The notes under the pieces are model-generated. The model was not told where the DNA came from. It ran no database searches and saw nothing but the letters and a program-made list of their open reading frames with translations. DNA of 64,000 nucleotides, from positions 1 to 64,000 of IMG/VR virus record IMGVR_UViG_3300041409_000610; one strand, written 5' to 3'. This document shows, piece by piece, positions 37,165 through 50,880 of this stretch (position 1 is its first letter; each line of letters begins with the position of its first letter). The position numbers and the translations under genes are program-made. This DNA is from a virus.

Positions 37165-39120
37165 TTACCGGCGGGCGGAGAGGTCTTCGAGGTACGCGCT
37201 GGCCTCCTGGAACGTACCCACCCGGCGGGCCGGGGGCAGCGCCTTCAGAATCTGCTTGCCGTAGCGCTTCTCGATCAGCCGCGAGTCGAAGATCGCGATC
37301 AGGCCCTCGTCGCTGGTCGTGCGGATCAACCGCCCGGCCTCCTGGAGCAGGTCCAGGGCCATGCTCGGCACCGACAGCTTCGGGAACGCGCCGTCGACCC
37401 ACTTGTTCGTGGCCACCTTGTCGATCGCCTCGGCGCGCGCGGCGAAGATCACGTCGCTCGGGACCGGGAACGGCATCTTGTCGATGATCACGAGCCGCAG
37501 CGCGTCGCCCGGCACGTCGAAGCCAGTGGCGAAGGACTTCAGCCCGAACAGGACGCTGGTCTCGTCCGTCTTGAACTTCTCGCCGAGCTGCTTCACGGTG
37601 CCCTGGCCCTGGATGAGCACGGTCAGGCCCATGTCCTCCAGCGACTCCTTCATCGAGTCGTGCATGGCCTGCATGTTCGCTCGCGAGCTGAACAGCATCA
37701 GCGTCCGGCCGCCCGCCTTGCGGATCAGCTCCAGGCTCTGCATCCGCAGCTTCGAGCGCCAGTTCGCCACGCCCTCGCCGGAGGGAACGCACTTCTCCGC
37801 CGGGATGTAGAGGGTCGCCTGCTTCTCGAAGTCGAACGGGCTGCCCGCGTCCACGTGCTGGTAGCCCGCCGGGATGCCGTGGCGCTCGGCGACGAAGGTG
37901 AAGTCGTCCCCGATGGCCACCGTGGCCGAGACCAGCGCCGCCGGGCCGCGCTCCCAGATCATCTCGTTGAGGAAATCGCCGACGTAGAGCGGCGCGTACT
38001 TCAGCACGACGCCGCGCTTGTCGTCCGACTCGATCCAGCGGACCAGCTCGTCCGAGGTCGAGAAGATCACCGACTTGAACTTGTCGAACATCGAGTTGAT
38101 GCGCTTCTTCAGCCGCTTGAGGCGCATCCGCTCCTCGTCCTCGGTCACGTAGGCGGCCTCGGCGGCCTTCTTCAGCGTGAGCAGAGCGCGCAGGATGTCG
38201 CCCAGCTGCTTCTCGGCCTCCAGGGCCTCACGGTCGCCGAACTTGACCGTGCGCTCCTTGGCCTCCCTGAGCAGCTTCTTCATGTGGGTGAAGAGCCGCT
38301 CTCCCGCACCCAGCAGGGCCGAGGTCTCGGCCGACACCGTGGCGGACAGCAGGTGGATGGCCTCGTTCGCGAGGTTCTCGATCCCGCGCTGGGTGACCTC
38401 GGCACCGAGGGCGTTGGTCGCGTAGCTCTCCAGCTCGTGGCTCTCGTCGATCCCGATGGCGCCGAACTCCGGCAGCAGGCCGAAGCCACCTTCCTGCTTG
38501 ATCCTCAGGTCGGTAATCAGCGCCGCGTGGTTGACGACCACGATGTCCGAGCGCTTCGCCCGGTCCTTGGCCACCTCGGCGTAGCAGCCCTTGTCGCCGA
38601 ACGGGCACTCGCTCTTGCCGGGGCACTCCTCGGAGGTCGAGACGATGAAGCGCTTCTCGCCGGGCTCGATCGGGGTGACCAGGTCGGCCAGGTCGCCGGA
38701 GTGGGCCGGGTCGGCCGCCAGCTCCTGCACCAGGGCCTCGCGGTACTGGATGTCGCCCGGCTTCAGCTCCTGCATCTTGGCCTTGCAGACGTAGTTGCCT
38801 CGACCCTTGACCACGGCGTACGAGAAGGGCTCGCCCAGGTGCTTGAGCAGGAAGGGCAGGTCCTTGTTGACGTACTGGTCCTGGAGTGCCTTGGTCGCCG
38901 TGGAGACGGCGGCCGGGAGGCCGGTGCGCCGCGCGTGCATGATCAGCGGGATGAGCAGGGCGAAGGACTTGCCCACGCCGCAGCCGCCCTGGCCGATCAC
39001 AACCTTGCACTCGCCGAGGGCGATCTCGATGGCCTCGGCCAGCATCTTCTGCTGGGGGCGCGACTCGTAGGCGGGCAGCGACTCAGCGAGGCGCTGCTCC
39101 GCTTCAGTCCAGGTCAGCAT
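37165..39120 (-). CDS. dinG: DinG/XPD-family Fe-S helicase
   Basis: 651 residues. Walker A GQGGCGVGKS is at residues 43-52 and the DESH box at 225-228. Four cysteines (C112, C166, C172, C179) lie between them in the spacing of XPD/DinG Fe-S clusters. The C-terminal helicase half contains FATGFDVPGDALRLVIIDKM and LLQEAGRLIRTTSDEG (motif VI). The family unwinds DNA 5'-3' and removes R-loops or displaced strands. In a phage replication operon it probably helps fork progression. A good GGAGGG lies 8 bases before the ATG. Confidence 0.85.
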   Translation of the reverse strand: MLTWTEAEQRLAESLPAYESRPQQKMLAEAIEIALGECKVVIGQGGCGVGKSFALLIPLIMHARRTGLPAAVSTATKALQDQYVNKDLPFLLKHLGEPFSYAVVKGRGNYVCKAKMQELKPGDIQYREALVQELAADPAHSGDLADLVTPIEPGEKRFIVSTSEECPGKSECPFGDKGCYAEVAKDRAKRSDIVVVNHAALITDLRIKQEGGFGLLPEFGAIGIDESHELESYATNALGAEVTQRGIENLANEAIHLLSATVSAETSALLGAGERLFTHMKKLLREAKERTVKFGDREALEAEKQLGDILRALLTLKKAAEAAYVTEDEERMRLKRLKKRINSMFDKFKSVIFSTSDELVRWIESDDKRGVVLKYAPLYVGDFLNEMIWERGPAALVSATVAIGDDFTFVAERHGIPAGYQHVDAGSPFDFEKQATLYIPAEKCVPSGEGVANWRSKLRMQSLELIRKAGGRTLMLFSSRANMQAMHDSMKESLEDMGLTVLIQGQGTVKQLGEKFKTDETSVLFGLKSFATGFDVPGDALRLVIIDKMPFPVPSDVIFAARAEAIDKVATNKWVDGAFPKLSVPSMALDLLQEAGRLIRTTSDEGLIAIFDSRLIEKRYGKQILKALPPARRVGTFQEASAYLEDLSARR

Positions 39121-39183: not shown

Positions 39184-39885
39184 TCACGCCCTCCGGTCCG
39201 TGCCCAGGATCGCGCACTCCTGGCCGGAGCCGAGTCGGCTGGCCAGGAACGCGGGCATCAGCTCGCTCAGCTCCACGGCCGGGTCGTGGTTCAGGGTGAA
39301 GACCGTGGGCAGGGTGCCCTCGCGCTCGTCGACCACCTCGCCCAGGGACTCCATGTCGAAGTCGGTCAGCTTGAACCGGGTCAGGTCGTCGATGACCAGC
39401 ACCTTGGCGTGGGTGACCTCGAAGTAGAGATCCTCGCGAGCCTTCGCGTTGCCGAAGTTCTTCAGCTGGCCGACCAGCCGGGAGGCCTTGTGGAAGGCGA
39501 TCGGCGGCGCGTCCACGTAGCTGTTGCTGTCCCAGAAGGCGGCCAGGTAGCAGGCCAGAGCGCTGGCGCCGTGGGTCTTGCCCACGCCCACCACGCCGCT
39601 CATCAGCAGCGGCTTGATCGGGCCACCCTGGATGATCTTGTCCGCCCACTGCCGCGCCGGGCGCGGGATCTCGTAGGCGTCCGGCATCGGCACGTGCTTC
39701 GGGGCGTGCAGCGCCCGGTAGGCCTTGACCTTGACCCACGTGCTCCGCAGCCGGTTCCACTCCTCGTTCGGGCCCATCAGGTCGGCGTCCCAGAATTCGG
39801 CCGGGTCCGGCGCGTCATCCGGGTCGAAGCCGTCGTACAGGTCCTCGGGCAGGATCCGGTCGAACGGGGTGATCATGGCGGTCAT
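39184..39885 (-). CDS. DnaC-like AAA+ helicase loader
   Basis: 233 residues. Walker A GVVGVGKT (97-104) and Walker B VLVIDD (162-167) with a following LTRFKLTDFD helix match the DnaC/IstB/DnaI loader group. Such loaders place the hexameric replicative helicase (here probably the DnaB-like product at 49561) onto origin DNA melted by the initiator. Its start codon overlaps the stop of the initiator gene by one base (TCATCA on the plus strand), so the two are made together. Confidence 0.75.
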   Translation of the reverse strand: MTAMITPFDRILPEDLYDGFDPDDAPDPAEFWDADLMGPNEEWNRLRSTWVKVKAYRALHAPKHVPMPDAYEIPRPARQWADKIIQGGPIKPLLMSGVVGVGKTHGASALACYLAAFWDSNSYVDAPPIAFHKASRLVGQLKNFGNAKAREDLYFEVTHAKVLVIDDLTRFKLTDFDMESLGEVVDEREGTLPTVFTLNHDPAVELSELMPAFLASRLGSGQECAILGTDRRA

Positions 39886-41099
39886 CAGGCGTCCGATCCG
39901 TGGGGCGGGATGTTGTAGTCGTCGAGCAGCCGCTGGTACAGCTGCGGGTCGATGCCGTTCGCGTAGGCGTCCATGAGCGCGTCGACGTCCTCGGAGGTGT
40001 TCCCGGTCTTCAGCATCTGCTCGACCGTCCAGTCTCGCTGCTCCTGGACGTTCCAGTGGTAGTACCAGGCGAAGTTCATCTCCCAGTCGCCCGGCATCGG
40101 GCCGGTGCGCATGAGCTTGCAGATCGGCCGGGCCTTGGCGCGGTCCAGCGCACCCTCCTGGGTCTTCACGTCCGAGCCCGCGTGGCCCTGGTAGCCCTTG
40201 ACCGGCGGCTCGATCTCCTCGGTCCAGCCCTCGTTGTTCAGCCAGGTGGCCAGGTTCTTCCGCCGGGGCTTCCAGGCGGTGCCGGTGCCCTCCGGCTCAC
40301 CCCGCGCTGCGGTGACGGCCACGTAGGCCGGGATGGCGGCCAGGATGGTCTCTGCCGGGGCCTTCTTCAGCGCCCGGGTCCAGGCCTTCTGGGCCTGCAC
40401 GCGGTCCACCTTGTGGCCGTAGGCGGTCCAGGCCTTGTCGAACTCCGGGTCTTCGGTTGCCGGGCTGGTGCGCTGGCGCCGGGCCTTGGGCGGAGCTGCG
40501 GGCAGGTCTTCGAAGTCGTTCAGGTTCAGCAGGACCACAGGGGCCTCCTCCGGTGCGGGGTCGGGCTTAGCGATGTGTTCTTTCTTAACGACGTTAGTAG
40601 GGAGAGAAGAGAGTGGGTTTTCGTAAGAGGTATACCTATCTCTCTTATATATAAGCCCCCCGTCTCCCTCTGAGACCCCCTCCCCCGTCTCTGTCTGAGA
40701 CCCCCCGGGGTCTCCCTGTGATACGGGGGTCTGAGCTGGGGATCCTTGGAGGGGGTCTCCCTCTGAGACCCCCGGGGTCTCTGTCTGAGACGGGGGGAGT
40801 GTCTGTGTGAGACCCCCCTCGTGCAGGCGGTAGACATTCGTTCGCGTCCCGCCGTCGGAAGCGGCCGAGGAATAGACCTCGACGATTCCAGCCTCGGTCA
40901 ATTCAGTCATCGCGCGATAGATGGTGGCTCGCGAGAGCCCGCTGTCCTCGATCAGCTCGGACTTGCTGCGCTCGATCTCCCGCCGATCGTCAGCGACGCA
41001 GCAGAGGGCGGCGTAGAGGTGCTTGGCGTGGACGGACAGCTTGACGTTCAGGACGATCGCGCGGCTGACGATCCCGCCCGGGTTGGCGGGCTCGGTCAT
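39885..41099 (-). CDS. Replication initiator (lambda O-like), carries the origin
   Basis: 404 residues. The N-terminal winged-helix domain (about 23-92; KSELIEDSGLSRATIYRAM, then RTNVYRL) is a DNA-binding domain. The disordered linker (about 96-146) is encoded by an array of direct repeats, and residues 147-163 by an AT-rich tract. The C-terminal part (about 205-404) is helical and Trp-rich, perhaps binding the loader. In lambda the O gene has the same arrangement: initiator DNA-binding domain, iterons inside the gene, then AT-rich DNA. The loader gene follows directly. Confidence 0.8.
   Translation of the reverse strand: MTEPANPGGIVSRAIVLNVKLSVHAKHLYAALCCVADDRREIERSKSELIEDSGLSRATIYRAMTELTEAGIVEVYSSAASDGGTRTNVYRLHEGGLTQTLPPSQTETPGVSEGDPLQGSPAQTPVSQGDPGGSQTETGEGVSEGDGGLIYKRDRYTSYENPLSSLPTNVVKKEHIAKPDPAPEEAPVVLLNLNDFEDLPAAPPKARRQRTSPATEDPEFDKAWTAYGHKVDRVQAQKAWTRALKKAPAETILAAIPAYVAVTAARGEPEGTGTAWKPRRKNLATWLNNEGWTEEIEPPVKGYQGHAGSDVKTQEGALDRAKARPICKLMRTGPMPGDWEMNFAWYYHWNVQEQRDWTVEQMLKTGNTSEDVDALMDAYANGIDPQLYQRLLDDYNIPPHGSDA
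40609..40660. other. AT-rich DNA-unwinding element candidate
   Basis: A stretch rich in A and T (for example CTTATATATAAG within 40644-40655) lies right beside the iterons in a genome that is otherwise very GC-rich. In lambdoid origins the AT-rich tract next to the O boxes is where the duplex melts. Confidence 0.65.
40662..40813. repeat. Iteron array of the replication origin (GTCTC-N5-GAGAC units)
   Basis: Six clear units of GTCTC-N5-GAGAC lie at 40662-40676, 40687-40701, 40710-40724 (imperfect, GATAC), 40755-40769, 40777-40791 and 40799-40813 (GTGTC variant). They are spaced about 22-25 bases apart; one degenerate half lies near 40730. Each unit is itself an inverted repeat, so a dimer could bind it. 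The whole array lies inside the initiator gene. Confidence 0.85.
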
Positions 41100-41290
41100 G
41101 CGTCTTCGCCACCGGCTGGCTGGAGGAGGGCTTCCACCTCGGTGCGGCGGTAGCGGATGAAGCGACCGTGCTTGTAGGCCGTGAGGGTGTTGTTGCGGCC
41201 CCAGGCGTAGATCGTCATCGGGTCGACCTTGAAGTAGTCCGCGACCTCTTGACGAGTCATCCAGGGGCTCTCTGCGGGCTTAGAGTCCAT
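41096..41290 (-). CDS. Small HTH DNA-binding protein (excisionase/MerR type)
   Basis: 64 residues. WMTRQEVADYFKVDPMTIYA, then HGRFIRYRRTEVEALL is the HTH_17/excisionase-type winged helix. It has no ribosome site; a -10-like TATAGT (minus strand, 41299-41304) ends 8 bases before its ATG, so it is a candidate leaderless transcript. Its stop overlaps the initiator start, so it is the first gene of the minus-strand replication operon and may regulate the divergent promoters. Confidence 0.75.
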   Translation of the reverse strand: MDSKPAESPWMTRQEVADYFKVDPMTIYAWGRNNTLTAYKHGRFIRYRRTEVEALLQPAGGEDA

Positions 41291-49560: not shown

Positions 49561-50880
49561 ATGAACAAGGCCGAAGAGGTCCTCTTCAACCACTTGACCA
49601 ACCCAGACAGTCTCGATTACCTCGTGCGCGAGGGCTTCTCCAGCTCCACCATCCGCGAGTGCATCCCGGGTGACATCGCTCCCCAGGTCGTGGGGTGGGT
49701 GATCGACACCTACTTCCGCTCGGGCCGGACCGTGGCACCCAGCCGCGAGGGGATCCTGGAGACCTGGGGCGACCAGATGGAGAAAGTCGATCTGGTCATC
49801 GACGACGACTACGAGACGGACTCCATCGAGTGGGCCGTCACCCAGCTGCGCACCCAGTTCGCCGAGGACCAGGTAAACGAGCTGACGATCCAGCTGGCCA
49901 ACGAGCTTCACCACGCCGCGCCGCCGGACAAGACCTCCGTGGTGAAGGAGTACTCGGGGCGGTTCCACGCTCTCACGAACCAGCTCATCAGCCACTACGA
50001 CGAGATGCCGCTGGACGTCGGTCTCGACCATGCCTGGGCTCGGTACCAGGAACGCGCCATCGCGCGGATGCACATCCAGGGGATGACCTTCGGCCTGCCG
50101 GAGATCGACGAGCACACCATGGGCGTCCGGGACGGCGAGATGGCCGTCTTCGCGGGCTACGCCGGGTCCGGCAAGACCTGGATGGCGATCAAGACGGCGC
50201 TGGCCGAGTGGCGGCGCGGCCGCCGGTCGGTGCTCTACACGCTGGAGAACAGCGTTGAGATGATCATCGACCGGATGGCCTGCATGATGGCCGGGCTCGA
50301 CTACGCCCGCTGGCAGAAGGGCACCGTGGAAGGCCCGCCGCTGGAGCGATTCCACGTGGCCAAGGACCGGATCCAGCAGACCGAGCACGCGCCGATCATC
50401 ATCATGCCCGAGCGCGGCGACCGCGACCCGGTCTCGCTCGTCCGCCGGGTGTTCGCTCTCGGCGGCGAGTCGGTGATCATCGACCAGCTGTCCCACATCG
50501 AAGCGGTGATCGGCACCCGCACGCACAAGCGCAACGAAGTCGTCATGGAGATCATGAAGGAGCTGTACGTCCTGATCTCCGAGGGCAAGGAGAAGATCTC
50601 CGCCCTCGTGCTCGCGCAGATCAACCGCGAGGGCAAGGACGCGGCCGCCCGGCTCGGCCGCTACGACATGGAGCACCTGGCCGAGTCCTCGGAGATGGAG
50701 CGGACTCCGGACTTCGTCTTCAGCCTGCTGCGCCAGCCGACCGAGACCAATGAGGACGGCGCGCTGCTCCAGAAGCTCAAGGGGCGCCGCGTCGAGGAGC
50801 GGCCCGAGGCCTGGGAGATGGTCTGGCGCCTCGGCGTCGGCGACATCCGGGTGATGAGGGAGGTGGCGCTCAGTGCCTGA
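49561..50880 (+). CDS. dnaB: DnaB-like replicative helicase
   Basis: 439 residues. Walker A GYAGSGKT is at 199-206, the Walker B Asp at 308 in SVIIDQLSHIE, followed by the DnaB-type KELYVLISEGKEKISALVLAQINREG segment (read in two parts) and the arginine-finger region. The N-terminal about 180 residues match the DnaB N-terminal helical domain in size. It is the hexameric 5'-3' fork helicase. A loader is encoded at 39184 and a primase at 51090. Confidence 0.85.
   Translation: MNKAEEVLFNHLTNPDSLDYLVREGFSSSTIRECIPGDIAPQVVGWVIDTYFRSGRTVAPSREGILETWGDQMEKVDLVIDDDYETDSIEWAVTQLRTQFAEDQVNELTIQLANELHHAAPPDKTSVVKEYSGRFHALTNQLISHYDEMPLDVGLDHAWARYQERAIARMHIQGMTFGLPEIDEHTMGVRDGEMAVFAGYAGSGKTWMAIKTALAEWRRGRRSVLYTLENSVEMIIDRMACMMAGLDYARWQKGTVEGPPLERFHVAKDRIQQTEHAPIIIMPERGDRDPVSLVRRVFALGGESVIIDQLSHIEAVIGTRTHKRNEVVMEIMKELYVLISEGKEKISALVLAQINREGKDAAARLGRYDMEHLAESSEMERTPDFVFSLLRQPTETNEDGALLQKLKGRRVEERPEAWEMVWRLGVGDIRVMREVALSA

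Follow-up and report, generated by a model that had tools for sequence, protein, structure and literature searches.

The replication origin of the phage studied here very probably lies inside the gene of its own initiator: judging from the sequence, we put at about 87% the probability that an array of six GTCTC-N5-GAGAC palindromes, together with the AT-rich tract beside it, is a theta-type origin embedded in that gene. The DNA comes from IMGVR_UViG_3300041409_000610, a 155,347-bp virus record whose first 64 kb form the window, that is, the whole stretch analysed here. The ends of the record (1-69 and 155279-155347) are a 69-bp direct terminal repeat, so it probably represents a whole genome assembled as a circle of about 155.28 kb, and since a tail-sheath gene is present we regard the phage as a myovirus. 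Its cultured relatives are all distant. The closest initiator domain, at 38% over 104 aa, belongs to an Arthrobacter phage, and Streptomyces phages have polymerases about 30% identical to that of this phage, which makes an actinophage, as first proposed, plausible. The window also codes for a DnaB-like helicase, a primase, an SSB, a PolIII-type polymerase and a UvsX-like recombinase.

The genes that concern us here are the following:

37165..39120, minus strand: DinG/Rad3-type helicase, which closes the minus-strand replication module (phrog_2488, E=5.6e-57; Helicase_C_2, E=4e-37)
39184..39885, minus strand: DnaC-like AAA+ helicase loader, 233 aa (phrog_50, E=2.7e-13; phrog_3277, E=1.4e-10; IstB_IS21, E=9e-6)
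39885..41099, minus strand: lambda-O-like initiator, 404 aa, with a winged helix-turn-helix (wHTH) domain, a disordered linker and a C-terminal helical domain (phrog_270, phrog_678, phrog_391, AlphaFold2)
41096..41290, minus strand: small HTH_17 (excisionase-like) protein, just upstream of the initiator (family matches)
49561..50880, plus strand: phage-encoded DnaB-like replicative helicase, the likely client of the loader (DnaB_C, E=1.8e-21; phrog_19, E=1e-35)

The loader gene is directly downstream of the initiator gene and overlaps its stop by one base. A promoter and terminator scan found no signals, and GC skew, suggested by the initial annotation as an origin check, proved uninformative, with no clear turning point here and gene strand as a confounder.

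The window protein belongs with the O-like/phrog_270 initiators. It matches phrog_270, 'replication initiation protein', with E=1.2e-35 over residues 17-398, which takes in both the HTH and the C-terminal parts; phrog_678 and phrog_391 ('replication initiation O-like') match as well, and HTH_36/IclR-type HTH does so weakly. It has no match to Pfam Phage_rep_O (PF04492) at E<=0.1, which we count against the origin reading, nor a Pfam match to RepA_N (PF06970). Structure searches retrieved generic wHTH proteins, with the RepA_N structures 5kbj, 4pt7 and 4pql as weak matches (E about 0.02-0.03), and from the viral structure library phage HTH, replisome-organiser and O proteins. The predicted structure divides the gene as follows:

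40815..41057, minus strand: wHTH DNA-binding domain, residues about 15-95 (AlphaFold2 pLDDT about 90-97 over most of it)
40893..40931, minus strand: recognition helix, residues 57-69, with the A58 codon at 40926-40928 and the R62 codon at 40914-40916 (AlphaFold2 and comparison)
40305..40457, minus strand: C-terminal helical domain, residues about 215-265 (AlphaFold2, confident helices), presumed to bind a partner

Between the two domains the linker is predicted to be disordered (pLDDT <50 over most of residues 105-213), and the array lies at its start, about 290-430 bp inside the gene, where it codes for residues 96-146:

40799..40813, no strand: iteron 1, one mismatch (pattern search)
40777..40791, no strand: iteron 2, exact (pattern search)
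40755..40769, no strand: iteron 3, exact (pattern search)
40710..40724, no strand: iteron 4, one mismatch, exact in the relative L004 (pattern search and comparison with L004)
40687..40701, no strand: iteron 5, exact (pattern search)
40662..40676, no strand: iteron 6, exact, adjoining the AT-rich tract (pattern search)
40594..40657, no strand: AT-rich tract, the presumed DNA unwinding element (genome-wide AT ranking)

The spacings along 40662-40813 are 25, 23, 45, 22 and 22 bp; the 45-bp gap amounts to two periods with one slot skipped, and at roughly 22-bp spacing the six iterons lie on about the same helix face. Plain counts are not significant (7 matches at <=1 mismatch in 64 kb, against 5.3 expected), and the array stands out by clustering and exactness: in a motif search of the whole 155,347-bp record, a check proposed at the outset, all 4 exact sites fell within 130 bp. 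A single-strand fold z of -5.5 merely restates the palindromes. The AT-rich tract ranks first for AT-richness across the 155-kb genome at the 40-, 60- and 80-bp scales, and adjoins the array directly downstream in the coding sense, which is lambda's side. The initial annotation was thus right to place the repeats within an HTH initiator-like gene, in the coding sequence of its disordered linker and beside an AT-rich tract. Its details needed amendment: the six repeats stand (four exact and two with one mismatch), whereas the seventh that it allowed for, a decayed copy in the gap at 40729-40743, has three mismatches, no better than chance, and was rejected; the spacing of 22-25 bases holds except for the 45-bp gap; and of the interval 40609-40813 only 40662-40813 is array, the remainder covering most of the AT-rich tract.

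The repeats are conserved as DNA and not as a peptide, since the six copies occupy all three frames of the initiator ORF (1,2,0,0,2,0) and the single DNA motif accordingly yields different peptides by frame (SQTET, VSEGD and LTQT-type). Four exact sites arose in 0/1500 protein-preserving codon shuffles drawn from the genome's codon usage, and in 1/1500 under the more conservative permutation of codons within the gene. In the relative L004 (81% identity over 150 aa) the array has stayed in register, and synonymous changes between L004 and the window affect 18/95 codons in the wHTH part and 2/51 in the iteron part; at fourfold sites alone this contrast gives p=0.06, which we count against the origin reading. 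A search for the loader gave no match in the remainder of the L004 record, the contig ending within the initiator gene just past the array. This contig is L183 1-18763, where the upstream HTH gene is 68% identical to the window's and other genes match the window's DnaB-like helicase and polymerase in size; the excisionase-like HTH_17 gene (41096-41290) also occurs in L183 and is a possible regulator of the module.

Searches with the initiator or loader protein gave almost no close relatives in viral contigs and, among phage records, none at E<=1e-5, so relatives were found through the iteron pattern. Paired GTCTC-N5-GAGAC sites occur in 72 viral contigs, against 5 for the reversed control CTCTG-N5-CAGAG, and a wHTH frame covers the array in 58/72 of the former and 0/5 of the latter. 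In most cases the array begins some 80-140 residues after the start of the ORF, and its copies often fall in mixed frames. L004 apart, the proteins that bear them are 10-26% identical to the window protein; 30 of 41 representatives match phrog_270, 25/41 match phrog_391 and a single one of the 41 matches Pfam Phage_rep_O (E=1e-11). The same layout occurs with other repeats in LiSara (GCCCG-N4-CGGGC) and Pam5 (GGTCA-N5-TGACC), and with direct repeats in the P. aeruginosa phages U7 and phi2.

This distribution also bears on the strongest rival, namely that the initiator or another HTH protein binds the palindromes merely for autorepression or handcuffing, as an operator or a brake on copy number, while replication begins elsewhere. 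Palindromic wHTH sites are typical operators, and the same pair is found outside phage initiators: only 12/83 bacterial-genome loci have a wHTH frame and 71/83 do not, so that the pair often has another meaning in genomes. In Nocardioidaceae, eight chromosomal loci of Nocardioides/Kribbella (L091, L098, L120, L123, L141, L150, L154 and L159) carry pairs 22-23 bp apart; in the one scanned, L141, the pair sits between divergent GAF/Fis-type regulator and amidohydrolase genes, the others have a similarly placed neighbour, and these pairs are probably operators separate from the phage origins. For the window we nevertheless consider an operator unlikely: (i) the sites lie well inside the gene and not at its promoter; (ii) the array adjoins the most AT-rich tract of the genome; (iii) many phages keep the array at the same linker position of O-like genes; and (iv) the characterised systems with such a layout are origins (PMC7466680, PMC6316719, PMC5703833).

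Two further groups of bacterial loci were seen. Eight contigs of the Candidatus Wallbacteria MAG STB_16 (L082, L086, L089, L102, L121, L131, L140 and L151) have GTCTC-N5-GAGAC pairs 20-21 bp apart that are not in evident initiator genes and may be a palindromic repeat dispersed through the genome. L083, L084 and L134 (Desulfobulbaceae, Candidatus Electronema) have regular arrays of 5-7 GTCTC-type palindromes, spaced exactly 23 bp apart, which do not clearly lie within an initiator gene.

The recognition helix of the GTCTC initiators opens with a common motif, S-[RK]-A-[TS]-x-x-R, in which the window protein has A58 and R62. Both residues are present in 32/38 of these initiators, against 2/48 of a comparison set of other wHTH proteins, drawn either from cultured phages or by sampling protein families. 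Across the 58 viral GTCTC wHTH frames, residue 58 is Ala in 55 and Ser in none. One of the two exceptions among the 48, L260, itself carries GTCTC palindromes with irregular spacers, and in its sister L259 Ser at 58 goes with GTCCC/GGGAC palindromes; this informative pair came from scans for HTH-only relatives, which otherwise returned mostly the same contigs. Rhodococcus phage Tonitrus likewise has Ser at 58 (GRSTVAR) and mostly GTCCC half-sites. On the basis of L259/L260 and Tonitrus, the prediction that Ser58 goes with GTCCC arrays was fixed before viral contigs were scanned for GTCCC. The scan gave 67 loci, 14 of them with a wHTH frame over the array, and residue 58 was Ser in 10, Lys in 3, Asn in 1 and Ala in 0; since GTCTC proteins made up most of the frame-finding profile, any bias would work against this result. 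The other 53/67 contigs (L261-L327 minus the 14) have GTCCC-N5-GGGAC pairs without a wHTH frame.

After reduction to a nonredundant set at 60%, Ala and Ser account for 35 and 1 of 41 GTCTC proteins and for 0 and 8 of 11 GTCCC proteins (Fisher p=5e-8). The homologues L031 and L288/L298 (42-44% identical) have the same spacing (17,17,22,23) and have switched both half-site and residue 58. In a tree-aware test with few tree columns, 4/4 independent switches on supported branches were concordant (sign test p=0.125); a wHTH-domain tree that set GTCTC initiators against others lacked the resolution to test independence. This covariation supports the view that each initiator reads the repeats of its own gene. 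We lean, with some reserve, towards a broader proposal: that GTCTC-N5-GAGAC marks widespread self-encoded phage origins, that residue X of the helix S/G-R/K-X-T/S-x-x-R sets base pair 4 of the half-site (GTCTC with Ala, GTCCC with Ser), and that gene and origin have switched together repeatedly across unrelated phages. Were residue X to set that base pair, initiator gene and origin would therefore change specificity together, inside one gene.

Two other explanations are far less probable than an operator. The array might be a partition centromere of the TubR-tubC style, since the family profile has TubR chains among its best PDB matches (E about 5e-6); this match spans only the generic wHTH, however, TubR is far shorter than the window protein, whose family matches are to replication initiation, and the surrounding genes examined include no partition NTPase, the neighbours being loader and helicase. 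Just as improbable is that a repetitive disordered linker (SQTET/VSEGD) gave rise to the repeats as a by-product, with no role for them as DNA. The peptide does look repetitive, and codon permutation within the gene fairly often yields near-repeats (mean 2.8 at <=1 mismatch). Against this stand one 15-mer read in three frames into different peptides, the near-failure of synonymous shuffles to regain four exact sites, the DNA kept between the window and L004, and the covariation of half-site and recognition helix, which is inexplicable by a peptide repeat.

With the array and AT-rich tract read as an origin, we infer the following course of initiation. Dimers of the initiator's N-terminal winged helix would bind the six palindromes, and the resulting complex would melt the AT-rich tract (40594-40657). 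Tethered by a disordered linker that the iterons partly encode, the C-terminal domain would recruit the adjacent DnaC-like loader, which would place the phage's own DnaB-like helicase, to be followed by the phage primase and PolIII-type polymerase. The UvsX-like recombinase may allow recombination-dependent replication, so the array could be an early origin only, with later replication possibly independent of it.

The origins of uncultured phages are seldom identified. Here, the sequence of a 155-kb genome that encodes its own replisome is enough to name a candidate origin, its initiator and its loader, and the shared iteron allows origins to be sought in dozens more phages. The Ala/Ser switch offers a concrete hypothesis of how an initiator might change specificity when the gene that encodes it also contains its site. 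Neither the shared iteron class nor the helix code was found described before; the literature search, confined to open-access papers and therefore no proof of absence, returned no paper on either.

The layout itself is already known, with lambda O/ori, SPP1 gp38/oriL and pSK41 Rep as precedents. In lambda and its Stx relatives, iterons and an AT-rich tract lie in the middle of the initiator gene, the initiator is dimeric and the loader gene comes next (PMC7466680). As the initial annotation had it, the window shows the architecture of lambda O and ori, with an adjacent DnaC-like loader; it repeats the O-ori-P order and polarity (wHTH, iterons, AT tract, C-domain, loader), and the Stx phages also have six iterons (PMC7466680). 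The palindromic half-sites, which it took to set the array apart from simple direct iterons, are indeed present but do not distinguish it from lambda, whose iterons are inverted repeats too (PMC7466680). The differences are that the iteron sequence is another, that the loader is AAA+/DnaC-like as opposed to lambda P, that the protein lacks the Phage_rep_O match and that this phage, unlike lambda, itself encodes a DnaB-like helicase, a primase and a polymerase.

In Bacillus phage SPP1 (gp38-oriL-gp39-gp40), initiator gene 38 contains oriL, which has repeats and an AT-rich element, and SPP1, like the window phage, encodes both a loader and a DnaB-family helicase (PMC6316719). SPP1, however, has a second origin, oriR, its repeats are described as direct and it relies on host polymerases and DnaG (PMC6316719), whereas the window phage has palindromic repeats, its own polymerase and primase, and no second array was seen in its record, the exact sites all lying in one place. 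The pSK41-type RepA_N proteins have a wHTH N-domain whose binding boxes lie midway along the rep gene itself, the origin encodes the central linker and the C-domain is reported to bind DnaG (PMC5703833); this is a Firmicutes plasmid family, and the window protein falls outside it by Pfam.

Nearer at hand, the actinophage 'RepA-like replication initiator' proteins (Arthrobacter LiSara g86 and Prairie g43; mycobacteriophage repA) have an architecture similar to that of the window protein. LiSara embeds four copies of its own palindrome in place of GTCTC-N5-GAGAC, and the same search detected no repeats in Prairie or VanLee. For mycobacteriophage repA the authors found no upstream repeats and suggested an origin beside or within the gene (PMC7157519). 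Gene 63 of the cultured actinophage Tonitrus, an HTH gene, contains four GTCYC-N5-GRGAC palindromes 22-24 bp apart, and here the mostly GTCCC half-sites and Ser58, as against those of the window, fit the proposed code. The window system is thus a further case of a known layout, and the shared iteron class and the helix code are the new part.
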